DNA of 31,679 nt, from the IMG/VR virus record IMGVR_UViG_3300047552_000157, positions 1 through 31,679 of that record; one strand, 5' to 3'. This DNA is from a virus. The notes beneath the pieces were generated by a model. That model did no database searches and was not told where the DNA came from. It was given only the letters and a program-made list of their open reading frames with translations. A program made the translations under genes and the position numbers. Positions 1,178 through 19,352 of this stretch are shown here, one piece after another (the first letter of the stretch is position 1; the number at the start of each line of letters is the position of its first letter).

Positions 1178-1205
1178 TTGAAAAATTAGTTACCTTTGGT
1201 ATGAT
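1178..1205 (+). promoter_or_regulatory. Putative extended -10 promoter overlapping the polymerase-start hairpin
   Basis: TTGAAA (1178-1183), a 16-base spacer ending in TGG, then TATGAT (1200-1205) give a sigma70-type promoter with an extended -10 (TGnTATGAT). The predicted start near 1212 lies inside the 3' arm of the hairpin at 1189-1221. RNA started here would lack the hairpin's 5' arm and carry the Shine-Dalgarno AGAGGT close to its 5' end. Motif-based inference. Confidence 0.45.
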
Positions 1206-1221
1206 GAATACCAGAGGTAAC
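1189..1221 (+). promoter_or_regulatory. Hairpin sequestering the polymerase ribosome binding site (gp43 operator-like)
   Basis: The arms 1189-1200 and 1210-1221 pair over 12 continuous positions, with one G-U wobble (1196 with 1214), around a 9-base loop ATGATGAAT. The 3' arm contains the Shine-Dalgarno AGAGGT (1213-1218) and ends immediately before the ATG at 1222, so initiation should be blocked when it folds. T4 gp43 represses its own translation by binding a hairpin over the gene 43 ribosome binding site. Position and logic match, although this stem is longer than T4's and protein binding is only inferred. Confidence 0.7.
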
Positions 1222-3963
1222 ATGTATAGTTCTATATATTTTTCACCAAGACACTCTGAGGTATACTGCTGGGAGTATGACGGAACCAAAAAGGTTATGT
1301 CAACCAACCCAGCACCTTTGTTTTTCTATGTAAAAGAATCCTCTTCACAGAATGCGGAGTATAAAACTATTTACGGTGATGCTGTAAAAAGGGTTGAGTA
1401 TACTTCGTGGCGAAAGTATAAAGATGCCATTGAAAGATATCATGAATGGGGAACTCAGACATTTGAATCCGATGTTGCTATTGAGACTAAGTTCATCATC
1501 TCAAATTACCTCGGAATGAATCTAAAAGTTCCTAAGTTTGACATTCATTTTCTTGATATTGAGGTTCATTCTGAAGTTGGGTTTCCTCGTCCAGAAGATG
1601 CCAATTCGCCAATTACTATTATTACAACATGGTCAACAAAACATGAAAAGTTCTTTATATTTGCCGAGAAGGATTTTGATGAATCTTTTATAATTACAAA
1701 TGGTGAGAAATGTGAAAAAAATATATTTAAATCTGAAAGTGATATGCTTAAAGAGTATATGCTTTGGGTTAAGGAAGAACATCCAGATATCATCTCGGGG
1801 TGGAATAGCAATGGATACGATATTCCATATATTATAAACCGTGCGAGAAAATTATTCGGTTACAAAGAAGATGAGAGGGGTTTTATCGTCGAAGATGGTG
1901 CATCGGACATATCCCCAATAGGGGTTATTCGTAACCGCCGCGTTCCAATTGATGAGTTTAATTTTGAGATAAAGTACGAGATTGCTGGTATAAATCTTCT
2001 AGATTACATGGAAGTATTTCAGAATTATACATTTTCCGAGCAAGAATCGTGGAAACTTGGTCATATATCACAATTGGAACTTGGAGAATCTAAAAATGAG
2101 TTCAATGGGTCGTTGGCTGACCTTTACAAACAGTGGCAACAGTATGTTGAATATAACGTACAGGACGTTCGTCTCTTGAAAAAGTTAGACGCTAAGAAGA
2201 GATTTTTAAACCTTCTTGTAACATTTTGCTACGGATGCAGAGTTCCTTTCGAGCATTATCTAAAGACGACAAAAGTTCTAGATGGAGCATTCCTCTCTAA
2301 ACTTGCCGAGGAAAAGGTCGTTCTTCCAGATGTCAATCGTAAATTGGTCGAGGAAATGAAGATTAAGAAAGAAAAGTATCCTGGTGGTTTTGTTAAGCAT
2401 CCTGAGGCGGCACTCCATGAGTGGTCGGTATCATTTGATGCTACGTCGCTTTATCCCTCTATTATGATGGGTTGGAACATAAGTCCTGAAACAAAGGTAT
2501 GTGTCATTGACAGTAAGCATGTCAAGTCGCTTATGAAGTATATGTCAAGGGGCATTGAGTGTGAAGATGAAGTTAGCATTCTTAAGAATCGTATGACTAT
2601 TACCGAATTGGGAAATATTATCAAGGATAAGAAGTGGTGTCTTGCGGCAAATGGGGCTATATACAGAACCGACACGCAGGGTGTTATTGGAAGATTCGTG
2701 AAGGAATGGTTCAATAAGCGCAAAGAATACAAAAAGAAGATGTTGAAGGCCAAGGATGCTCACGATGAAGATAAGGCATCTGAATATGATGGTCTTCAAC
2801 ACAATTTTAAAATACTAATTAATAGTGTGTACGGATACCTTGGAACTCCTCATTCACGATTCTTCGATTGGGATAATGCTGTAGCAGTTACCATGACCGG
2901 AAGGGCAATAACTACAACTTGTATCTCGGCTATTGATAATTATTTCAAGTCTGATGTGTGGATAAACAACAAGAAGTATCGTCTTGGTGAAACTAACAAA
3001 CCAATTGACAACACCGTTATATATGGGGACACAGATTCCCTTTACATATCATTCGGGCGCATACTCAAGTCATTTGGATATGAATACGAGGGTAAGGATC
3101 CCGAATCCGTGAAGAATTACATTATATTCGGTGAAGATAAGACTAACGCTGAATTTTATGATAAACTCTCTAAAGACGAGCGTGAGAAACTTGAAGACAA
3201 GGCGGATTCAATTCAAAATTTCGTATCATCAATAATCAATAAAGCGATGAAATCATTAACAATTGGGCATATGAATGTGCCTGAGAATCTAATTCACTTC
3301 AAACGTGAATCCGTTGCTTCTAGGGCAATCTTTCTCGAAGCTAAAAAACATTATGCAATGTGGGTGCTCAACTCGGAAGGGGTCGAATTAGAAGACAAAA
3401 AGAAGCTAAAATTAGTTGGTATAGACGTTGTAAGATCTTCAACGCCACCCATAGTTCGCAAAGAACTAAAAACTATCATCAGGGATATTCTGGTTAAACT
3501 TGATAGAGATTTTACAGTAGGTGAATTGAGCAAAATGTATGATTTGTTCCTCACGGCAAAACCGGAAGATATTGCATTTCCGTCGTCAGCAAAGGATGTC
3601 AAAAAGTACGTTCAAAAGTTAAAAGAAGAGGGAAAGTTTAAGAGCACTCCTATGCACATTCGAGCAGCAATTCTTTATAATCAGATGCTCAGTGATAATC
3701 CCAATTTGAAGCGTAAGTACGACATGATATACAACGGCGATAAGATGAAGTATGTTTATACTAAGAAGTCTAACGAGTGGAAAAATGATATTTTTGGATG
3801 GAAAGATAAGTGGGTTTCGGAATTGGGTATTGAAGATAATATTAACCGTCGAGAACAATTCCATAGGGCTGCAATAAGTCCCATTGAAGATTTTTTTAAA
3901 ATACTTAATTGGAGCCTTCCAGACCTGGATTGTCATGATATGACTGGTATTTTTAAGTGGTAA
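1222..3963 (+). CDS. 43: Family B DNA polymerase with 3'-5' exonuclease, T4 gp43-like
   Basis: Replicative DNA polymerase. Exonuclease motifs: DIEV (D112, E114), GWNSNGYD (193-200) and YNVQD (D315). Polymerase motifs: FDATSLYPSI (D406), KILINSVYGYLG (about 529-540) and YGDTDS (D603, D605). The segment around VGIDVVRSSTP matches the thumb-side region of gp43. The open frame extends back to 1201, but neither ATG at 1201 or 1204 has a Shine-Dalgarno. The ATG at 1222 follows AGAGGT by a few bases and places the Exo I residues at 112/114, as in T4, so I use it (913 residues). T4 gp43 has 898. The C-terminus ends in an aromatic-containing tail (GIFKW), where gp43 binds the gp45 clamp. Unlike T4, the gene is separated from the 45-44-62-regA cluster. 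Confidence 0.97.
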   Translation: MYSSIYFSPRHSEVYCWEYDGTKKVMSTNPAPLFFYVKESSSQNAEYKTIYGDAVKRVEYTSWRKYKDAIERYHEWGTQTFESDVAIETKFIISNYLGMNLKVPKFDIHFLDIEVHSEVGFPRPEDANSPITIITTWSTKHEKFFIFAEKDFDESFIITNGEKCEKNIFKSESDMLKEYMLWVKEEHPDIISGWNSNGYDIPYIINRARKLFGYKEDERGFIVEDGASDISPIGVIRNRRVPIDEFNFEIKYEIAGINLLDYMEVFQNYTFSEQESWKLGHISQLELGESKNEFNGSLADLYKQWQQYVEYNVQDVRLLKKLDAKKRFLNLLVTFCYGCRVPFEHYLKTTKVLDGAFLSKLAEEKVVLPDVNRKLVEEMKIKKEKYPGGFVKHPEAALHEWSVSFDATSLYPSIMMGWNISPETKVCVIDSKHVKSLMKYMSRGIECEDEVSILKNRMTITELGNIIKDKKWCLAANGAIYRTDTQGVIGRFVKEWFNKRKEYKKKMLKAKDAHDEDKASEYDGLQHNFKILINSVYGYLGTPHSRFFDWDNAVAVTMTGRAITTTCISAIDNYFKSDVWINNKKYRLGETNKPIDNTVIYGDTDSLYISFGRILKSFGYEYEGKDPESVKNYIIFGEDKTNAEFYDKLSKDEREKLEDKADSIQNFVSSIINKAMKSLTIGHMNVPENLIHFKRESVASRAIFLEAKKHYAMWVLNSEGVELEDKKKLKLVGIDVVRSSTPPIVRKELKTIIRDILVKLDRDFTVGELSKMYDLFLTAKPEDIAFPSSAKDVKKYVQKLKEEGKFKSTPMHIRAAILYNQMLSDNPNLKRKYDMIYNGDKMKYVYTKKSNEWKNDIFGWKDKWVSELGIEDNINRREQFHRAAISPIEDFFKILNWSLPDLDCHDMTGIFKW

Positions 3964-4088
3964 AAAACGGGCATGGCAGATAGTATATAGCGTATGAGCC
4001 AGGGCGTTCTATTTCGTCCCAACTTAAAAGCACTCTCTCAAGCCCCTTCGCAAAAACATGCTAAAGACATCACAATACTGCCATGCCC
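3962..4088 (-). ncRNA. Candidate structured non-coding RNA, minus strand (novel)
   Basis: The 206-base gap between polymerase and uvsX contains what looks like a minus-strand RNA of about 127 nt. Its ends form a perfect 11-bp stem (3969-3979 with 4078-4088). Inside are a second stem (3988-3995 with 4056-4063; 7 of 8 pairs) and two abutting hairpins: 4021-4044 (10 bp, tetraloop) and 4002-4020 (5 bp with one bulge). Five pairs are G-U on the minus strand and would be A-C mismatches on the plus strand, which favours minus-strand transcription. A TATAAATA box sits 6 bases before the 5' G. Six U follow the terminal stem, overlapping the polymerase stop codon. I recognise no known family, and see no tRNA, hammerhead or HDV core. 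Confidence 0.6.
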
Positions 4089-4094
4089 AAACAA

Positions 4095-4102
4095 TATTTA
4101 TA
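4095..4102 (-). promoter_or_regulatory. T4-type late promoter (TATAAATA) for the minus-strand RNA
   Basis: The exact octamer TATAAATA reads on the minus strand from 4102 to 4095. Six bases separate it from the G at 4088, the spacing expected for a T4 late transcription start. Known biology: T4 late promoters consist of this -10 octamer read by gp55-RNA polymerase and activated by the gp45 clamp, which this phage encodes. Because it points away from uvsX, the only transcript it could produce nearby is the structured RNA. Confidence 0.6.
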
Positions 4103-4169: not shown

Positions 4170-5306
4170 ATGGCAAAGTCTAAAAAAGAAGCGGCAAAAG
4201 TTGATATTAGGTCTTTGTTTAAGACATACGCATCCAATACCAAGAATTCAAAATTAGAAATGTTTGATGAAGCACAGTTACCGAATGTTGATTCTTTTAT
4301 ATCAACTGGTTGTTACTCATTAAACAGAATACTTTCCGGTTCATACTATAAGGGTATCGCTCATGGAAGAATGACTGGACTTGTTGGACTTCCAGGTGTT
4401 GGTAAGACTTATGTTTGTAAAAATGTAATTAGAGAGGCGCAAAAAGAAGGATACGGTGTCATTATATATGATACCGAAAATGCATATTCAAAGGATGATT
4501 TGGAACGCTCTGGAATTGACGCCTCGCAGGTAGCATATCCATCGGTAACAACTATCAACGAATGGAAGACAGACATATCCAACATGCTTCCAGCACTTCA
4601 TGCTGAAAACCCAGATCAAAAGTGGCTAGTTGTCACAGATTCCCTTGCAAATCTTCTTACCGAAAAAGAAATTACCGATACTGAAGAAGGTGGCACCGCT
4701 CAAGATATGGGACTGAGGGCTAAGCAATATTCAGCAGCATCAAGAATACTTCAAAAGATAATTGCCAATAATAATGCCGCCATGTTGATAACTAATCATA
4801 GTTACGAAAAACCAGGGGCAAATCCAAATGTCCCACCCGTAGAGATACCGAAGGGTGGTAATGGGTTTATCTATATGGTTTCTTATATGGTTGGTATAAA
4901 GAAATATGCGGTGAAGGACGAGCAAAAAAATGTAGTTGATAATAGCACGGAAAAGATAAAAGTTGGAAATAGAATGGTATTCACAACGATGAAAAATCGT
5001 TTTGTTCCAGAGGGAATGACTGCCGAGGCGTTTATAAATTTTAGAGAGGGATTGCTCCCATATCATGGACTATTGGAAGATGCTGTAAAGCATGGATTCA
5101 TAGAGAAATCTGGAAACCGTTGGAATATTAAGCATTCTGGTAAATCTGTTTGGACTAAAGAGTTGTATACTTCGGAAGTTTGGGATGCAATTTTACCAGA
5201 ACTTGATAAAAAAGTCAGCGATGAATTACGGTATTCTTCCTACGGTGACGATGCTTTAAAGGATATGAATGTGGAAGAGAAAAGTGACGACAATCTGGAT
5301 GGTTGA
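4170..5306 (+). CDS. uvsX: UvsX-like RecA-family recombinase
   Basis: Strand-exchange protein used in recombination-dependent replication and repair. Walker A GLPGVGKT is at residues 73-80 and the Walker B strand WLVVTDS at about 152-158. The Glu in DTEN (about 101-104) fits the RecA-core catalytic position, and ITNHSYEK (about 207-214) is in the position of the UvsX/RecA switch region. A DNA-binding-type segment follows (VEIPKGGNGFIYM, about 224-236). The acidic C-terminal tail (EEKSDDNLDG) is typical of the family. Length is 378 residues against about 390 in T4. The start follows AAGGAGA at good spacing. A weak promoter (TTGTAT at 4118, TAAAAT at 4140, 16-base spacer) could serve it. Confidence 0.93.
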   Translation: MAKSKKEAAKVDIRSLFKTYASNTKNSKLEMFDEAQLPNVDSFISTGCYSLNRILSGSYYKGIAHGRMTGLVGLPGVGKTYVCKNVIREAQKEGYGVIIYDTENAYSKDDLERSGIDASQVAYPSVTTINEWKTDISNMLPALHAENPDQKWLVVTDSLANLLTEKEITDTEEGGTAQDMGLRAKQYSAASRILQKIIANNNAAMLITNHSYEKPGANPNVPPVEIPKGGNGFIYMVSYMVGIKKYAVKDEQKNVVDNSTEKIKVGNRMVFTTMKNRFVPEGMTAEAFINFREGLLPYHGLLEDAVKHGFIEKSGNRWNIKHSGKSVWTKELYTSEVWDAILPELDKKVSDELRYSSYGDDALKDMNVEEKSDDNLDG

Positions 5307-5351: not shown

Positions 5352-6746
5352 ATGTCAGATAAGACACAACTTTATATTCTAAACGCTATACTAAGCGACT
5401 CAAATTTTTCTATAAAATATATTGATAAATTTGAATCCAAATTCTTCGCCCCTCCGGTTGCAAGAGTTATTCAATGTGTTAAGAAGTTTTTCGTCCTATA
5501 TCACCGTATACCAACATCCGAACAATTGATAAAAACTCTTCTTCCAAAATTAGTGAAGGATGATGCTGAAAAATTGGAAGAATCTATAGATTGTATCCAC
5601 GAGTGTCGTCAACTTGAAATGAGAGAAGATTTCTCACAGTGGATAGAGGACGAATCTAAGACATTTATACGAATTCAAAGAATATCCCACGCTTTGACAC
5701 AGTGTATAGAACATCTTGATAAAGGCGACCCTGAAACCGCTGCTAACATGGTGCTCAAAGCGTCCGAGATTCATTTTGACGAGGATCTTGGACTTGATTA
5801 TTTTGAAGATGTTGAAAAGAGAATGGAAGAGTTGCGAAACCCAGCACTTGTCATACCGACTGGTCATGATAAGTTGGATTCTGCTATAGGCGGTGGGTGG
5901 AGAAATAAGTCCCTTATTATGTTTGGCGCCGCCACCAATGTTGGAAAGACGCTTATTTTGGGGCATATAGCATATAAACTTATAGAATATGGAATAGATG
6001 GTCTTTATATAACCCTTGAAATAAATCAAAATATTTTAGCGAATAGAATAGATGCAAATCTATCCGATATTGGTATGGGCGACTTGTCCGAGAATGTTGA
6101 TGAGTTGATGCAGAGAATTGTTACCAGAAAAAAAGAGCGACTGCAAGCCAGTAAAGAAGACCCATCTGTAAAACCATTCGGTAGATTTATCATTAAAGAA
6201 TGTCCCCCAGGGTTTTTAAATGCAAATGGAATATCCGCTTTACTTAGAGAGTTGCAGTTGAAGAGGAATTTTAGACCTAAGTTTATCTGTGTGGATTATA
6301 TAGGTTTGATGATTCCAAATGGAAAAGCATTCTCTGATAATACATATGGAAAAATGAAAACCATTACCGAGGAATTGAGAGCAGTTGGTGTTCTTCATGA
6401 TATACCAATATTCTCAGCGGTTCAAGTCAATAGAGAAGGTTATAATACAACACATGTTGGACTTGAAAAAACCTCAGATTCCATGGGAATTGCCCACGGT
6501 GCAGATTTAATGATAATGGTTAGTAGAGACGAAAACGCTGACAGTGAAAATAAGATGTATTGGCATGTTGCAAAGTCCAGGTGGAGTCGAAATGGTCAGA
6601 GTTTCGTCATGTCGGTTGATTATGAGCATATGAGAATTGTGGACGAGGAACCAGATAAAAACCAAGCACAAACCCAAGCCGTAGTTGATGCTATTAACGA
6701 ATATAAGAGCAGAAGTGCGACTGATAATAATGGGAGAAAACAATGA
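5352..6746 (+). CDS. 41: Replicative DNA helicase, DnaB/gp41-like
   Basis: Hexameric 5'-3' replicative helicase expected to work with the primase encoded at 15301. The N-terminal ~150 residues are helical, as in DnaB-family collar domains. The RecA-like motor follows: Walker A GAATNVGKT (192-200), the catalytic Glu in YITLEIN (E223), Walker B FICVDYIGL (D316), the SAVQVNREG sensor loop (about 356-364) and an AKSRWSRNG arginine-finger region near the C-terminus. At 464 residues it is close to T4 gp41 (475). The last bases overlap the next ATG (ATGA), so translation of the following HTH gene is probably coupled. The start codon at 5352 is preceded by GGGAAA, a weak Shine-Dalgarno. Confidence 0.93.
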   Translation: MSDKTQLYILNAILSDSNFSIKYIDKFESKFFAPPVARVIQCVKKFFVLYHRIPTSEQLIKTLLPKLVKDDAEKLEESIDCIHECRQLEMREDFSQWIEDESKTFIRIQRISHALTQCIEHLDKGDPETAANMVLKASEIHFDEDLGLDYFEDVEKRMEELRNPALVIPTGHDKLDSAIGGGWRNKSLIMFGAATNVGKTLILGHIAYKLIEYGIDGLYITLEINQNILANRIDANLSDIGMGDLSENVDELMQRIVTRKKERLQASKEDPSVKPFGRFIIKECPPGFLNANGISALLRELQLKRNFRPKFICVDYIGLMIPNGKAFSDNTYGKMKTITEELRAVGVLHDIPIFSAVQVNREGYNTTHVGLEKTSDSMGIAHGADLMIMVSRDENADSENKMYWHVAKSRWSRNGQSFVMSVDYEHMRIVDEEPDKNQAQTQAVVDAINEYKSRSATDNNGRKQ

Positions 6747-7018
6747 GAGTCGCAAAACCAGACCAATTAACATATGAAGAAATCGCTGAATTATATAAAA
6801 TATCACCCAATAAAGTCCATGATATAGTAAAGTCCGCTTATAACAAAATGGTTAATTTTTATGTTGATAAGTTTGAAATGAATATATTTGATGCTGTAAT
6901 GGAACTTAGACAGGTTATGAATATGTCGGAAAAGGAAGCGTTTGATAAATTAGATGATTCTAATAGAATGAAAATCAAAGAAGAAGCCATCCACAGGATG
7001 AAGGAGAAATATATATAA
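6743..7018 (+). CDS. Small helix-turn-helix protein, sigma region 4-like
   Basis: A 91-residue protein. Residues 9-36 (LTYEEIAELYKISPNKV and onward) match the helix-turn-helix pattern of sigma factor region 4: an LT-EEIA helix, then a turn, then a recognition helix with a following basic segment. The rest is helical and charged with no other domain I recognise. It starts inside the helicase stop codon (ATGA overlap) and is followed by dUTPase one base after its stop, so it is co-translated with replication genes. DNA or RNA polymerase binding is a reasonable inference. A part in late transcription would be speculation, although a stand-alone sigma-4-like domain in a phage with T4-type late promoters is suggestive. 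Confidence 0.8.
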   Translation: MRVAKPDQLTYEEIAELYKISPNKVHDIVKSAYNKMVNFYVDKFEMNIFDAVMELRQVMNMSEKEAFDKLDDSNRMKIKEEAIHRMKEKYI

Positions 7019-7583: not shown

Positions 7584-8606
7584 ATGGCAAAATTCGCATC
7601 TTTCAACAAAGATCAGTTTGAGGAACTTCGTAAAAAACTAGAAGAATCCAAGAACGCTGGAGCAAATAAAAAGGAAGATACCAAATCTTTCGATTGGCGA
7701 TTCAACCCAACACAAATAAAAGGCGAAGCGAGGACGATTTACAAGATTCGCATCCTCCCTCACATCCATGTTGACGATGGTGCGTCAGAACCGTGGATTC
7801 AAAATTCGGTACACATTTTTAAACCAAAGGGTTCCGATAAGAATACTTATCAGATTTGCCCCCATACTTATGAGGGCGATAAGGCCAAGTGTCCAATATG
7901 CGAGCATTCTAAGTTCTGGTTCGCTAAAAAGGATAAGACCAGTGAAGATATTGGTCGTGCTTTCTGGAGGAAGAAGCGTTGGCACATGAATATTCTTGTC
8001 AAGGAAGATCCTCGTAAGGGTGAAGAGAATCAAAAGGGAAAGGTTCTTGTTTGGGAAGTTGGTACTAAGATTTTTGACAAGTTGAGTGAAGCACTAACGA
8101 TGCATAAGATGTTTTTCTGGGATCCTCATAACGGTTTTGATTTCAATATAGTCGTTAAGCAGGTTGGTGGTTATGCTAATTATGATTCATCTGATTTTGC
8201 AAGAAGTCCTTCGCCAATTGTTGAAGTTGAGGAAGAGTTGGATTCAATCCATGACCAGATTAGAGATCTTAATAAGTTGATTATTGGGCAGAAGAGAAAG
8301 TCATATGACGAACTTAAGGCTATCCTTGAGGGTCGTAAGACGGCAGGTGGTAATGCTCCAGATGGTGAATCATCACCAGAAACCGTTACCAGGGATACAG
8401 AGGGTGAAACCGAAGTTTCCAGGGCAAATGATGCTGAAGCAGTTCCTATGAATGAGGAAGAAGATGTACCACCATCCAATCCAGCGCCAAAGGCAGAGTC
8501 AAAGGCACCCGCCAAAACACCAGCAAAGTCATCCGCTAAAGCAGCATCGTCCGAACCCGAGATAGATATTGACAAGATAAACTTTGATGAGGAAGATCCG
8601 TTCTGA
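7584..8606 (+). CDS. 32: Single-stranded DNA binding protein, T4 gp32-like
   Basis: Coats single-stranded DNA during replication and recombination and coordinates the polymerase, helicase, primase and UvsX. The zinc ligands match gp32: His77, Cys92, Cys103 and Cys106 (T4 uses H64, C77, C87, C90, with similar spacing). The basic N-terminus (LRKKLEESK) corresponds to the cooperative B domain. The OB-fold core is rich in aromatic and basic residues. The C-terminal third is an acidic then Ala/Pro/Lys-rich linker (about 255-320) ending in an acidic tail, FDEEDPF, the type of tip used to bind partner proteins. At 340 residues it is longer than T4's 301 because of this linker. AAGGAG precedes the ATG at good spacing. 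Terminator at 8632-8672. Confidence 0.93.
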   Translation: MAKFASFNKDQFEELRKKLEESKNAGANKKEDTKSFDWRFNPTQIKGEARTIYKIRILPHIHVDDGASEPWIQNSVHIFKPKGSDKNTYQICPHTYEGDKAKCPICEHSKFWFAKKDKTSEDIGRAFWRKKRWHMNILVKEDPRKGEENQKGKVLVWEVGTKIFDKLSEALTMHKMFFWDPHNGFDFNIVVKQVGGYANYDSSDFARSPSPIVEVEEELDSIHDQIRDLNKLIIGQKRKSYDELKAILEGRKTAGGNAPDGESSPETVTRDTEGETEVSRANDAEAVPMNEEEDVPPSNPAPKAESKAPAKTPAKSSAKAASSEPEIDIDKINFDEEDPF

Positions 8607-8627
8607 TAATAATCTAAGTTAGAATGA

Positions 8628-8636
8628 TGATATAAT
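8628..8636 (+). promoter_or_regulatory. Extended -10 promoter embedded in the gene 32 terminator
   Basis: TGATATAAT is a perfect extended -10 element (TGn plus TATAAT at 8631-8636). No good -35 lies upstream, which extended -10 promoters can tolerate. The predicted start near 8643 falls inside the 5' arm of the terminator stem, so RNA made here would keep only about three bases of that arm and could not form the terminator. It would drive the rmlB-like gene independently of gene 32. Confidence 0.4.
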
Positions 8637-8672
8637 AACCAGTAGGAAATAACCTGCTGGTTATTATTTTTT
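8632..8672 (+). terminator. Rho-independent terminator after gene 32
   Basis: The arms 8632-8646 and 8653-8667 form a 15-bp stem (one U-G wobble) around a six-base AAATAA loop. The tract of T at 8667-8672 follows directly. It lies 26 bases after the gp32 stop codon and before the Shine-Dalgarno AGGAGA of the next gene, so it separates the replication operon from the sugar genes. Confidence 0.85.
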
Positions 8673-8687
8673 ATAGGAGAATAAAGT

Positions 8688-9722
8688 ATGAATACATTGA
8701 TAATAACTGGATCCGCTGGTTTTGTCGGCATTAACACTCTGGAGAAACTTTCGGAGAGACAAAATCTAGCAAAGAATTATAATAGAATAATATCAATAGA
8801 TAAAATGGGATATGCTACAGAGTTTAATAGGTCTTTTTATTATCAAATTTTAAATAAATTAGACAAGTTTACCAAGGTAATATCTTTAGAATGTGATATC
8901 AATTCTAACGAATTTAAACATAAAAAATATCAACATTACGATGATGAAAGTATAGACATTCTGGATTTCGCAAGCGAATCGCATGTGGATAATAGTATAA
9001 AAGATCCTTTCTTCATATACACACAAAATTGCGCCATACCTTCAAATCTTTTATCGTGGATAGGTAAAGATAAATGGAAAAGTATAAAAACTTATTATCA
9101 TATAAGCACTGATGAGGTTTATTCGGAGATACCGCTGGAAAATGTGCATGATAAAAAATATTGGTTTACAGTGGATACGCCATTAAAACCCAATAATCCA
9201 TATTCGGCGTCAAAGGCCGCTCAAGATTGCTTTCTAATGTCTATAAAACATACATACGGTCTTAATGTCAAATTTATAAGAATGGCCAACCAACAACCTG
9301 GAAAATATCAGCATAAAGAAAAAATGTTAATGGCGAGTATACTAAGAGTTCTTAATGGTGATACTGTTAAAGTATATGGTAACGGTAAAAATATTAGACA
9401 GTGGACTCCAGTAGAAATAACAGCGGGGATAATACTTGATGTTTTAGGTGGAGTTATTACTGTAGATGACAGTGTAATACATATAGCAAATAAAAATGGT
9501 GTATTTACAAACAATGAAATAGTTAGTATGCTTGAAAGGGTTATGAGTGGATATGGTTATGAATTGAAAAAGGAATATATTCAGGATAGATTGGGACATG
9601 ATACTGCCTACGCTCTAATAACCGAAGAATATATAGACAAATATTTTGATGGTGTTAGTGTAGAGGAGTATATGAAAACTTGCGTAGATTTTTGCATTAA
9701 AAATAAACAAATATTCTTTTGA
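8688..9722 (+). CDS. rmlB: NAD-dependent sugar-nucleotide 4,6-dehydratase, RmlB-like
   Basis: Short-chain dehydrogenase-type enzyme predicted to convert dTDP-glucose (or a related nucleotide sugar) to its 4-keto-6-deoxy form. Evidence: Rossmann motif GSAGFVG (8-14), ASESHVDNSI (95-104) as in RmlB, the catalytic triad region ISTDEVY (T141, D142, E143), YSASK (Y172, K176), a QPGKYQHKEK stretch matching the RmlB 'GPYQHPEK' loop, and RLGHDTAYAL matching 'RPGHDxRYA' near the C-terminus. At 344 residues the length is normal. It lies directly upstream of the RmlC-RmlD fusion, which supports the dTDP-deoxysugar assignment. No RmlA thymidylyltransferase is visible, so dTDP-glucose would come from the host or from a gene outside the window. 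Confidence 0.87.
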   Translation: MNTLIITGSAGFVGINTLEKLSERQNLAKNYNRIISIDKMGYATEFNRSFYYQILNKLDKFTKVISLECDINSNEFKHKKYQHYDDESIDILDFASESHVDNSIKDPFFIYTQNCAIPSNLLSWIGKDKWKSIKTYYHISTDEVYSEIPLENVHDKKYWFTVDTPLKPNNPYSASKAAQDCFLMSIKHTYGLNVKFIRMANQQPGKYQHKEKMLMASILRVLNGDTVKVYGNGKNIRQWTPVEITAGIILDVLGGVITVDDSVIHIANKNGVFTNNEIVSMLERVMSGYGYELKKEYIQDRLGHDTAYALITEEYIDKYFDGVSVEEYMKTCVDFCIKNKQIFF

Positions 9723-11159: not shown

Positions 11160-11906
11160 ATGCTACAGGGGAAGTTTAATAGTAAGCAAGTAGAGGCACT
11201 TCTAACCCCGCTCTTGGATATTCAGCGTGTCGGTATTGATAGGATATTGCTGGAGATAAATTCGGATGGAACTCTCAATATAGGAACACAGACTGGAAAC
11301 GGATCAAATTTTGTTATTGTTAACTACAAGCAAAATTTGTTTAGCGGTTTTGAAACCGTTTCAGAAAAATTCCAGTTTGGTATTCATAATTTATCGGAGT
11401 TTTCTGGAATAATAAAGATATTCGATGAGGGTTTTACTTTTAAACTGACTGAAGAGTTGGCATCTATAGATAACGATTCCAATAAGTTTCTATATTACGG
11501 GTGTTCCGCTAAAGATACCCTAAAAGCACCAGGATCCAAGATAAATGGATTATCATTTAAACCAGATGCTACTTTTGTTTGGGACGCTAAGATGAAGCAG
11601 TTTATGAACGCCATGTCTATGCTCAAGCAGGAACATATTATATTCACCGGTGATGTCAGCACTAAAACAGTATCAATTACGGTCACGAATAAAGAATTTA
11701 AAAAATATAACAATTTCAAAGTAACGGTTCCTGCAACAACCGTTGAAAAAGAATTTAGAATAGTTGTTGATAAGGATAAATTACAACCAATTGTAATGTC
11801 TAAGAATAGTGTTTTCAATGTGTCACTTTTGGAAAAAGGAGTAGTTTTCTTAAATAATACTGAGTATTATGACATACTACATTCCGTGACGCCTCTAATA
11901 CGGTGA
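11160..11906 (+). CDS. 45: DNA polymerase sliding clamp, gp45-like
   Basis: Predicted trimeric clamp that tethers gp43 to DNA and, in T4, also activates late promoters. Sequence conservation is low in this family. The call rests on length (248 residues, T4 gp45 has 228), the predicted two-fold beta-rich pattern, the FGIHNLSEFSGIIKIF stretch (about 73-88) resembling the clamp helix region, and position: it opens the clamp / clamp-loader / RegA / primase cluster in the T4 order 45-44-62-regA. AGGAGAG precedes the ATG. A weak TTGCAT-N16-TACAAT promoter lies at 11112-11139. The three TATAAATA sites in the window fit with a gp45-dependent late system. Confidence 0.77.
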   Translation: MLQGKFNSKQVEALLTPLLDIQRVGIDRILLEINSDGTLNIGTQTGNGSNFVIVNYKQNLFSGFETVSEKFQFGIHNLSEFSGIIKIFDEGFTFKLTEELASIDNDSNKFLYYGCSAKDTLKAPGSKINGLSFKPDATFVWDAKMKQFMNAMSMLKQEHIIFTGDVSTKTVSITVTNKEFKKYNNFKVTVPATTVEKEFRIVVDKDKLQPIVMSKNSVFNVSLLEKGVVFLNNTEYYDILHSVTPLIR

Positions 11907-16364: not shown

Positions 16365-16382
16365 TCTCCTAATGGAGAGTTA
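16361..16382 (+). promoter_or_regulatory. Hairpin sequestering the gmd ribosome binding site
   Basis: TAATTCTCC (16361-16369) pairs with GGAGAGTTA (16374-16382) over 9 positions, one of them a U-G wobble, around a TAAT loop. The 3' arm holds the Shine-Dalgarno GGAGA for the ATG at 16384. RNA read through from primase would fold and hide it; RNA from the overlapping promoter would not. T4 uses the same logic in gene e, where early RNA folds and late RNA does not. Confidence 0.65.
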
Positions 16383-16383
16383 C

Positions 16384-17493
16384 ATGAAAAAAGCTTTAGT
16401 AACAGGTGCAAATGGACAGGATGGTTCCTATCTCATAGAACTTTTATTGGAAAAAGGATATGAAGTCCATGGGATGATAAGACGGTCTTCGGTTTTTAAT
16501 ACAGACCGAATAGATGGACTTATGAATAATCATGATATATACAATAAAACTCTTTTCATTCACTATGGAGATGTCACCGATTCATCCAATGTTAGTCGTT
16601 TATTAATGGAGATAAAACCGGATGAGATATACAATCTCGCCGCTCAAAGTCATGTTAAGGTTAGTTTTGAATTACCCCAATATACAGGGCAGGTTGACGG
16701 TATAGGAACATTGAACATATTAGAGTCAGCGAGAATAATAGTCCCAAATTGTAAAATATACCAAGCGTCAACATCCGAGTTGTACGGTGGCATGGGTTAC
16801 AATATGCCGGAATTCGGATACACTGAGAATTCACCTTTCCACCCGCGTTCCCCATATGGATGTGCGAAAATATATGGATATTGGTTGGTTAGAAACTATA
16901 GAGAAGCATATGGTATGTTTGCCTGTAACGGTATTTTGTTTAATCATGAATCTCCAAGAAGAGGTGATACATTTGTTACCAAAAAGATAACAAACTGGTT
17001 TAGAAAATTACCTAAGAGGATTTCCCAAACCATTCCAAAAGATTGCACTATGGAAATATACTCTGAAACGGATTGCCAAACAAAATTAAAAAGTATACCT
17101 CCATTAGAATTGGGCAATATAAACGCAAAGCGTGATTGGGGGCATGCTAAGGATTACGTTGAGGCTATGTGGTTGATGCTTCAACAGGAAACCCCAGAAG
17201 ATTTTGTAATATCAACAAATTCCACATATTCGGTGAAAGAATTTATAAATGAGTGTGTTAGATATTTGGGACATGAAGAGCATGTGACCTGGATAGGTAA
17301 CGGTATTGATGAAAAACTGGTGTGGGTGGATGGAAAACTCAAAAATGAACCTTTGGTTGTAATAAATAAAAAATATTTTAGACCATCTGAAGTGGAAGTT
17401 TTGTTAGGAGACTCTACTAAGGCGAGAGAAAAGTTGAAGTGGGTACCGAGGTATAACTTCTCAAGTCTCGTATCGGAAATGATGAATGGATAA
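16384..17493 (+). CDS. gmd: GDP-mannose 4,6-dehydratase
   Basis: Converts GDP-D-mannose to GDP-4-keto-6-deoxy-D-mannose, the branch point for fucose, rhamnose, perosamine and colitose nucleotides. Motifs: GANGQDG (8-14, NADP binding), AAQSHV (86-91), QASTSELYG (127-135, with T130 and E132), Y158-x-x-x-K162, FNHESPRRG and RDWGHAKDYVEAMW, all hallmarks of Gmd. The length is 369 residues. An unusual insertion with two Cys (about 213-240) lies between RRGDTFVTKKI and the RDWGHA motif. The frame has an earlier ATG at 16372, but its only Shine-Dalgarno is downstream of it; GGAGA at 16374-16378 fits the ATG at 16384. It overlaps the next gene by 8 bases. Confidence 0.96.
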   Translation: MKKALVTGANGQDGSYLIELLLEKGYEVHGMIRRSSVFNTDRIDGLMNNHDIYNKTLFIHYGDVTDSSNVSRLLMEIKPDEIYNLAAQSHVKVSFELPQYTGQVDGIGTLNILESARIIVPNCKIYQASTSELYGGMGYNMPEFGYTENSPFHPRSPYGCAKIYGYWLVRNYREAYGMFACNGILFNHESPRRGDTFVTKKITNWFRKLPKRISQTIPKDCTMEIYSETDCQTKLKSIPPLELGNINAKRDWGHAKDYVEAMWLMLQQETPEDFVISTNSTYSVKEFINECVRYLGHEEHVTWIGNGIDEKLVWVDGKLKNEPLVVINKKYFRPSEVEVLLGDSTKAREKLKWVPRYNFSSLVSEMMNG

Positions 17494-18433
17494 AACATCA
17501 AAGATATTGGTTTTAGGTTCCCGTGGAATGGTTGGGTCTGCAATTATAAGAGAATTGCAAAAAATGGATTATTGTAATATATTACAACCGTCGAGAAATG
17601 AGTTAAATCTCATGGATGGGATTGCCGTTGGGAAATATTTTGAGTTACATAAACCCGAGTATATTTTTCTAGCTGCCGCTAAAGTTGGCGGGATAATTGC
17701 AAATTCTCTATATCAAGTGGAATTTGGAAGAGAGAACATTATCATACAAACAAATGTATTGGACTCCGCTGCGTCTGGTTGTGAGCGTGGTTATGTTAAA
17801 AAACTATTATTTTTGGGTTCAAGTTGTATATACCCCAGAGATTGCCCACAACCGATAAAAGAAGAATACCTTCTATCTGGACAATTAGAGGATACAAACT
17901 ACATGTATGCCTTATCAAAAATACACGGACTGAAAATGTGCCAGTCTTATAAGAGGCAATATGGTTACAATTTTATATCATGTATGCCAACGAATCTATA
18001 CGGTATAAATGACAATTTTGATGAAAAAACAAGTCATGTCTTACCGGGTATAATGAGTAAGATTTACAAATCCATGCTAAACGAACAAGACGCTGTTTTA
18101 TTTGGTGATGGAAGTGCTCTCCGTGAATTCTTATATGTTGATGATATGGCAGAGGCATGTATCATTCTTATGAATAATTACGATGGCGAGTCTACTATTA
18201 ATGTTGGTTATGGTGAAGATATGTCTATAAAAGATGTTGCGAGATATGTTTCTGAGGTTATGGATTACCGTGGAAATATAGTATGGGATACCACCAAACC
18301 AAATGGGACTATGCGTAAATTACTAGATTCCACGAAAATAAAACAGATTGGATGGTCGCCAAGAACAAAATTTAAAGACGGTCTTTATAAAACCTATATG
18401 TGGTTTTTGGAAGGAAAAAATGGAAACAAATGA
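17486..18433 (+). CDS. fcl: GDP-L-fucose synthase-like epimerase/reductase (copy 1)
   Basis: NADPH-dependent enzyme converting GDP-4-keto-6-deoxy-mannose to GDP-L-fucose by 3,5-epimerisation and 4-reduction. Rossmann motif GSRGMVG (11-17), AAAKVGGI (63-70), and the catalytic set are all present: GSSCIYP (111-117, with the acid/base C114), Y141-x-x-x-K145 and the His in SHVLPG (H184). At 315 residues the length is typical. All residues known to be needed in E. coli GDP-fucose synthase are in place, so it should be a complete enzyme, although a ColC-type activity on a 3,6-dideoxy substrate cannot be excluded given the ColD-like gene nearby. It overlaps gmd by 8 and the next gene by 14 bases. 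Confidence 0.9.
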   Translation: MDKTSKILVLGSRGMVGSAIIRELQKMDYCNILQPSRNELNLMDGIAVGKYFELHKPEYIFLAAAKVGGIIANSLYQVEFGRENIIIQTNVLDSAASGCERGYVKKLLFLGSSCIYPRDCPQPIKEEYLLSGQLEDTNYMYALSKIHGLKMCQSYKRQYGYNFISCMPTNLYGINDNFDEKTSHVLPGIMSKIYKSMLNEQDAVLFGDGSALREFLYVDDMAEACIILMNNYDGESTINVGYGEDMSIKDVARYVSEVMDYRGNIVWDTTKPNGTMRKLLDSTKIKQIGWSPRTKFKDGLYKTYMWFLEGKNGNK

Positions 18434-19352
18434 TATTATATGTGTACTAGGATCCAATGGAACTTTGGGAAAATCTCTAATACAACATATACAGGACGCT
18501 GGATATCATAATATTCTGTCTCCACCGCGATCGGAGTTGGATCTGACATCATATGATAGTGTTAGAAAATATATAGAACGTAATAAACCAAAATATGTTA
18601 TTTTATCCGCTGCTAAGGTTTCCGGTATATCCGATCAGATGCTATATCCAGCGGATCATGCTTTTATCAACGGTTCTATAATATTGAATGTATTTGAGGC
18701 GTGTGCGAAGAACATGGTTGAAAAGACCCTATTCATATCTTCGGCTACTATATATCCAAGGGATTGTCCGAATCCGATAAAGGAAGAAAGTATATACACG
18801 GGAATGTTAGACACTGATGTTGAGATGTATGGGTTGACTAAATTGTTGGGGACAAGAATGTGTCATTACTATAGCAAACAGTATAAGACTAAATTTGTAT
18901 GCTGCGTCCCATCTAATATATATGGTCCGTATTGCAATCTATACGGAAGTCGTAAGCATGTTATAGCGTCTCTTATAGAAAAGATACACAATGCTAAGAT
19001 ACATAATCATCCTAGTATAACAGTTTGGGGAGATGGAAATGCTAGAAGAGAATTTATATACTCTGGCGACTTAGCGGAATGCTGTTTATTCATACTAAAT
19101 AGTGTTGATTCCTCAAATCATATAAATGTTGGAACGGGTGAAGATTTCAGTATAAAACAACTCGTAGAAGTCATAAAAAGAGTTGTAGATTATGAATGTG
19201 ATGTTATTTGGGACACCTCCAAACCCAGTGGGAATGGTAGGAGACTTTTAGATTCGTCTAAGATAAATAATATGGGTTGGAATCCAAAGCATAATCTTGA
19301 AAATGGAGTTAAAAAAACCTACGAATGGTATATGAAGGAAATAATAAAATGA
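18420..19352 (+). CDS. GDP-fucose synthase-like paralog lacking the epimerase cysteine (copy 2)
   Basis: Tandem paralog of the preceding gene. It keeps the Rossmann motif GSNGTLG (11-17), AAKVSGI, IYPRDCPNPIKEE, Y137-x-x-x-K141 and the His in RKHVIASL (H179). The GSSC segment reads SSAT (107-110), so the epimerase cysteine position is a Thr. In E. coli GDP-fucose synthase that Cys and the His act in the 3,5-epimerisation, so this copy may be mainly a reductase, or a related epimerase/reductase such as ColC with altered chemistry. The frame runs back to 18348, but the ATG at 18420 follows AAGGA by five bases and aligns with the start of copy 1, giving 310 residues. Its stop overlaps the next ATG (ATGA). 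Confidence 0.85.
   Translation: METNDIICVLGSNGTLGKSLIQHIQDAGYHNILSPPRSELDLTSYDSVRKYIERNKPKYVILSAAKVSGISDQMLYPADHAFINGSIILNVFEACAKNMVEKTLFISSATIYPRDCPNPIKEESIYTGMLDTDVEMYGLTKLLGTRMCHYYSKQYKTKFVCCVPSNIYGPYCNLYGSRKHVIASLIEKIHNAKIHNHPSITVWGDGNARREFIYSGDLAECCLFILNSVDSSNHINVGTGEDFSIKQLVEVIKRVVDYECDVIWDTSKPSGNGRRLLDSSKINNMGWNPKHNLENGVKKTYEWYMKEIIK

Follow-up and report, generated by a model that had tools for sequence, protein, structure and literature searches.

One group of uncultured T4-like phages very likely carries a previously undescribed small structured RNA gene with its own late promoter, situated on the minus strand in the gap between the genes for the gp43-like DNA polymerase and the UvsX-like recombinase. 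We read its product, with confidence slightly short of even, as a late, stable, trans-acting noncoding RNA in which a terminal helix would protect the ends and two short boxes would form the functional core, most likely one that binds protein.

Genomic context and layout of the element

The window—by which we mean the whole stretch of DNA that was analysed—is a 31.7-kb fragment of a T4-like phage with 36% GC (its genome is labelled G000, and its version of the RNA W). Its gp43–uvsX gap measures 206 bp and contains no long ORF (Table 1). On the minus strand the order is the octamer, TTGTT, T, the 5′ arm of the terminal helix, the interior, the 3′ arm, a single G (3968), and T6, which overlaps the gp43 TAA (3961–3963). 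The body of the RNA ends inside this stop codon, and further overlap with the gp43 message would need read-through. When checked in the sequence, the promoter octamer, perfect 11-bp stem, G, and six U of the original prediction, made from this DNA alone, were all found where it had placed them. T4-type late transcripts should start about 5 nt after the octamer of the late promoter, where the stem begins. The prediction had set the 5′ end at 4088; this stands as one of two positions, the other being 4089, that are allowed by the conserved offset of 5 nt from TATAAATA to the start of the stem, which the three versions of the RNA described below share.

For gp43 itself, a start at 1222 is probably to be preferred to the ATG at 1201, which appears too early; gp43 of the relatives begins at MYSS. 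Just 5′ of this likely start, a hairpin (CTTTGGTAT..ATACCAGAG, 1194–1216), with a counterpart in the relative L002 (CTCTGGTATACTTAAGCCAGAG, about 1023–1050), is placed like the autogenous operator of T4 gp43. Elsewhere in the window, a 91-aa protein between helicase and dUTPase (6743–7018) bears a weak resemblance to sigma-70 region 4 and helix-turn-helix proteins (Pfam E 6e-4, below the cut-off), and three successive nucleotide-sugar epimerase-like genes (PHROG 540) followed by an aminotransferase make up a sugar-biosynthesis cassette adjoining the replication genes (16372–19352).

Table 1. Features of the window that bear on the candidate RNA gene and its surroundings
Feature	Position	Strand	Basis or remark
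gp43-like DNA polymerase	1201–3963	+	PHROG 262, E 5e-197
Structured noncoding RNA gene (candidate), about 127 nt	3962–4089	−	Fold z-score; three diverged versions at one junction; no conserved frame; no Rfam family
U6 tract at the RNA 3′ end	3962–3967	−	Overlaps gp43 stop codon
Terminal helix P1, 3′ arm CTGCCATGCCC	3969–3979	−	Pairs with 4078–4088
Invariant box 2, ACGCCCTGGCTCA	3995–4007	−	Identical in 3/3 versions
Invariant box 1, TGCGAAGGGGCTT	4040–4052	−	Identical in 3/3 versions
Tentative hairpin CUUU-A-GCA loop UGC-G-AAGG, 3′ side forming the start of box 1	4045–4066	−	Minimum-energy fold of W
Terminal helix P1, 5′ arm GGGCATGGCAG	4078–4088	−	Perfect pairing with 3969–3979
T4-type late promoter TATAAATA (putative)	4095–4102	−	Exact match; equivalent position in L002 and L004
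UvsX-like recombinase	4170–5306	+	PHROG 97, E 2e-54
gp41-like helicase	5352–6746	+	
Clamp, gp45-like	11160–11906	+	PHROG 223
Further replication genes: dUTPase, single-strand binding protein, clamp loader, RegA-like repressor, primase		+	

Conservation among related phages

A UvsX search of IMG/VR contigs returned matching junctions in L001 (the same or nearly the same virus), in L002/L003, and in L004/L005, whose gp43 proteins are 88% (L002/L003) and 79% (L004/L005) identical to that of the window; the source of L002 is a 33 °C geothermally affected sediment, Larsen N4 (PMC8098120). A pattern scan of viral contigs for both boxes gave those five contigs again and no others, and the collections searched hold three distinct versions of the RNA (W, L002, and L004). 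At fourfold-degenerate sites of gp43 and uvsX, identity is 0.42–0.44 between W and L002 and 0.36 between W and L004, with only 22% of such sites identical in all three, which implies that neutral DNA is nearly randomised and close to saturation. The two 13-nt boxes TGCGAAGGGGCTT and ACGCCCTGGCTCA are nonetheless unchanged in all three versions, for which the naive chance at neutral sites is about 7e-18 per placement. As invariant runs of 14–16 nt also occur in constrained coding sequence there, the boxes demonstrate constraint but not its kind. Their spacing differs by 3, 4, and 7 nt from one version to another, and neither strand preserves a reading frame across the three; the element is not protein-coding.

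The remaining parts of the element keep their places as well: every version has the late promoter, a stem that begins 5 nt further on, and a T-run (T6 in W and L002, T5 in L004) abutting the gp43 stop. We scanned about 270 kb of the phage group for this layout—TATAAATA, then, 2–8 nt on, the start of a stem of 9 bp or more, and a T-run after the 3′ arm—and found one match per RNA-bearing genome, at this locus, and none elsewhere. These observations bear on the possibility that an inverted repeat and an octamer have met in a spacer by chance. The octamer occurs four times in the 36% GC window, which is not above its frequency in shuffled sequence, but every part of the element is conserved at one place in three diverged genomes; a chance origin is already contradicted and we regard its probability as next to negligible.

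Compensatory change in the terminal stem

MAFFT alignments (A3 and A4) put the 3′ arm of L004 in the wrong place, and we therefore compared the stem by hand and not through a covariance model. Its arms are GGGCAUGGCAG/CUGCCAUGCCC in W, with an additional U-G closing pair, UGAGGGCGUACCAAC/GUUGGUACGCCCUCA in L002, and GGAGAUAUGUU/GACAUAUCUCC in L004, where the last pair is U-G and the 5′ arm reads GGAGAUAUGU(U). Despite these differences in sequence, the stem is without mismatch in all three versions. Counted by hand, about six to seven two-sided changes separate W from L004 and about four separate W from L002, all of them still paired. Compensatory changes across relatives, which the original prediction had named as a touchstone, have thus kept the terminal stem intact, and its central claim, that the minus strand holds a structured RNA gene driven by a late promoter, is strongly supported by this compensatory replacement, by the invariant boxes, and by the fixed positions of promoter and T-run. 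What comparison of this kind reveals is the putative gene together with a promoter, a terminal helix, and an invariant core.

Folding and strand preference

Folding energies point in the same direction. The minus strand of W folds at −44.6 kcal/mol, against −31.8 for dinucleotide shuffles (z −3.7; 2 of 1000 shuffles as good), and the minus strands of L002 (z −5.5; 0 of 1000) and L004 (z −2.4; 19 of 1000) likewise fold better than their dinucleotide shuffles, the outcome that the original prediction had anticipated. The single-sequence z-score of W alone is suggestive only, the comparative evidence being the strong part. Plus-strand folds are weaker in every version (z −3.4 in W, −4.4 in L002, and −1.35 in L004), in keeping with the claim that the fold favours minus-strand transcription. 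We also considered a plus-strand terminator for gp43 and rejected it, since on that strand the stem is not followed by a run of U and the fold is poorer in every version.

Third among the alternatives is an element acting as DNA, such as a recombination, replication-start, or packaging site, to which the promoter would be incidental. An inverted repeat flanking conserved boxes within a replication gene cluster is what such a site might look like, but the stem is held at a fixed position relative to TATAAATA (5 nt) and to the T-run on one strand only, and the minus strand outfolds the plus strand throughout; we judge a DNA-level site very improbable.

The interior is less settled than the terminal helix. 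Minimum-energy interiors differ among the three distinct versions (W, L002, and L004), and the nested inner hairpins of the original prediction did not survive comparison: the relatives have no fold in common with them, and they are a property of one sequence. The hairpin of W that runs into box 1 has an equivalent in L002, and L004 has a different, overlapping hairpin (UCGUAG/CUGCGA), so that we tentatively propose a small predicted hairpin ending in box 1, common to W and L002 and with a counterpart in L004. An inner helix found by hand (UGUGA/UCAUA in W, GUGAG/CUCAU in L002, and UGUG/CACA in L004) is plausible but not compelling. Two further candidates were discarded: a helix joining the boxes through GGGC/GCCC, and a pseudoknot formed by UGAG/CUCA. 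Either can be drawn on paper, but both have near-zero pair probability by nearest-neighbour energies and no variation at the bases concerned.

Evidence for a working late promoter

In the relatives, the octamer is placed as a promoter should be: 10 of its 18 matches in genome G004 and 15 of 19 in G008 lie at most 80 nt upstream of an ORF start, and among the 56 permutations of T3A5 it ranks first for placement upstream of ORFs (G001, G004, and G008). This placement and rank argue for a working late promoter in the lineage, and the octamer is very probably functional there.

Other sites with the octamer or the boxes were also encountered. Looser pattern scans of viral contigs yielded L041–L045 and L054–L057, which were rejected for want of boxes, stem, or noncoding context. 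In L041 (214–400) and L043 (631–820), which share the same sequence, TATAAATA is followed by a compact foldable stretch (GCGAAG...CTTCGC, CCGGCGACGAAGGGGCCGG) that is not homologous to this RNA. The site L058 (G004:C1:2872–3010) has two orphan octamers, and downstream of the second come TTCTCAC (after 2 nt) and GTGAGAA (after about 110 nt); from its sequence the site is possibly a second late structured RNA. A scan of 257 Gb of genomes for both boxes matched only repeats of Wenzhouxiangella sp. XN79A, a multi-copy element (L014:6060, L015:190, and L016:3931 and 4237) with both boxes at the same 56-bp span as in the window. By our own estimate, 23 fixed bases at 31 spacings in 257 Gb should give about 0.2 matches by chance at even composition and about 1–2 in GC-rich genomes. 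Given this expectation, and as the repeat has nothing in common with the RNA beyond the searched bases, we rejected it as a homolog and take the match as coincidence.

Related phages that lack the RNA

A tree of gp43 places W, L002, and L004 in a group separate from L006, L034, and L032; these last three lack the RNA at this site. The absence from L006 and L034 indicates that the RNA is not essential to the wider lineage, its distribution reflecting either a gain in one clade or losses in the sister lineages. In L034, whose gp43 is 60% identical, the RNA body is missing. L032 has in its gp43–uvsX gap a 480-aa minus-strand ORF without a Pfam match (7879–9321) and a minus-strand TATAAATA at 9395. 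In cyanophages that share this gene order, gp43 and uvsX either overlap or lie 10 nt apart. The L034 promoter described below, the L032 ORF with its promoter, and the cyanophage gaps together suggest that the gap is a site of late minus-strand cassettes in this lineage.

L034 and L035 retain a minus-strand TATAAATA (L034:7824–7831) whose distance to uvsX matches that in W (67 nt), yet here the octamer immediately follows the gp43 stop codon; it has no RNA body or gene downstream, would start a gp43 antisense transcript, and is the only far-orphan intergenic late promoter in its 62-kb record. This speaks for the second-ranked alternative, a local antisense device in which the late minus-strand promoter opposes gp43 expression at late times and the folded RNA with its U-run serves as a leader and terminator that meters read-through into the gp43 antisense. 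The promoter of the RNA does aim into the 3′ end of gp43, and both sense and antisense transcription of T4 gene 32 are documented in work that the T4 review cites (ref B83 in PMC3014915). The T-run, however, would terminate the RNA within the gp43 stop codon, and a metering leader needs neither two invariant boxes nor a stem that starts at +1; we consider such a device distinctly unlikely.

Comparison with known RNAs

Searched with Rfam 15 at the gathering threshold, the window gave no match, and a search up to E = 5 on the RNA strand found nothing relevant in the W, L002-type, or L004-type loci. Hits to Yfr13 (E 4.1, opposite strand, beside the L012 element) and to tmRNA (E 1.6, far from the element) were dismissed as chance matches. 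Similar DNA was absent from 50,697 GenBank phage records. Like 6S RNA, tmRNA, RNase P, and other Rfam families, the predicted RNA is compact and closed by a terminal helix, but it matches none of them. CfrI of cyanophage S-PM2 is transcribed from the strand opposite a coding cluster. It too is a noncoding RNA of a T4-like phage, but is about 225 nt long and acts in cis at psbA (table in PMC12197685), whereas the present RNA is about 127 nt; the S-PM2 gp43–uvsX gap is only 10 nt. PreS of lambda and PAK_P4as15 also come from phages and alter the expression of host or phage genes in the course of infection (PMC12197685), but pair with known messages (PreS in trans, PAK_P4as15 in cis), whereas this RNA is marked by a closed helix at +1 and two invariant boxes. 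The phage sRNA list in PMC12197685 has no entry at the gp43–uvsX junction which, with the lack of an Rfam family, agrees with the statement in the original prediction that no RNA is known to have been described at this site.

The nearest counterparts in T4 itself are RNAC and RNAD, also small RNAs of a T4-type phage and of unknown role (PMC3014915). They are set apart by location, lying in the T4 tRNA region, whereas this RNA lies in the gp43–uvsX gap, on the opposite strand and with its own late promoter.

Possible function

A helix at +1, an outer helix free in sequence, an invariant core, a late promoter, and a T-run fit a stable trans-acting RNA of late infection. Under this reading, the phage-modified RNA polymerase would start at about 4089 from TATAAATA, reading away from uvsX, and transcription would stop where gp43 ends, in the T-run. 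A helix of 10–15 bp with the 3′ end would bury the 5′ end of the RNA and should protect it from 5′-end-dependent decay and from exonucleases. The two 13-nt boxes would make up a compact core acting in trans, most probably through the binding of a phage or host protein as a ribonucleoprotein or decoy. From the conserved architecture we infer transcription, stability, action in trans, and a protein partner.

The main alternative is that the same late RNA is a trans-acting antisense molecule, its boxes being seeds that pair with host or phage messages. Boxes of 13 nt that stay invariant beside freely changing helices are as expected of a base-pairing seed, and many of the phage sRNAs so far described work by such pairing (table in PMC12197685). 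On the other hand, neither box has a complement of at least 11 nt elsewhere in the available parts of G000, G001, G003, and G004; the best complements in an E. coli rRNA operon are 7–8 nt long (8 nt to tRNA-Glu), E. coli possibly not being the host; and the boxes are mostly paired in the predicted folds of W and L002, though partly open in that of L004. We therefore hold base-pairing to be unlikely, if still a serious contender. A more specific proposal within the protein-binding reading is that the two boxes let the RNA work as a late decoy or effector, seizing or disabling some protein of the host, such as an RNA-processing enzyme, a defence nuclease, or the transcription machinery; to this we likewise give only a minor share of our confidence.

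Were a decoy or effector role true, a new RNA family would begin here, and lytic phages of the T4 type would have their first trans-acting RNA with a defined function. According to a 2010 review, T4 had yielded no functionally characterised small regulatory RNA acting in trans; the review gave the roles of RNAC and RNAD as unknown and noted that candidates might come from the genomes of related phages (PMC3014915). The RNA described here is a candidate of the kind hoped for, with comparative support for its structure, promoter, and sequence core, and a cultured relative would make its role directly testable.
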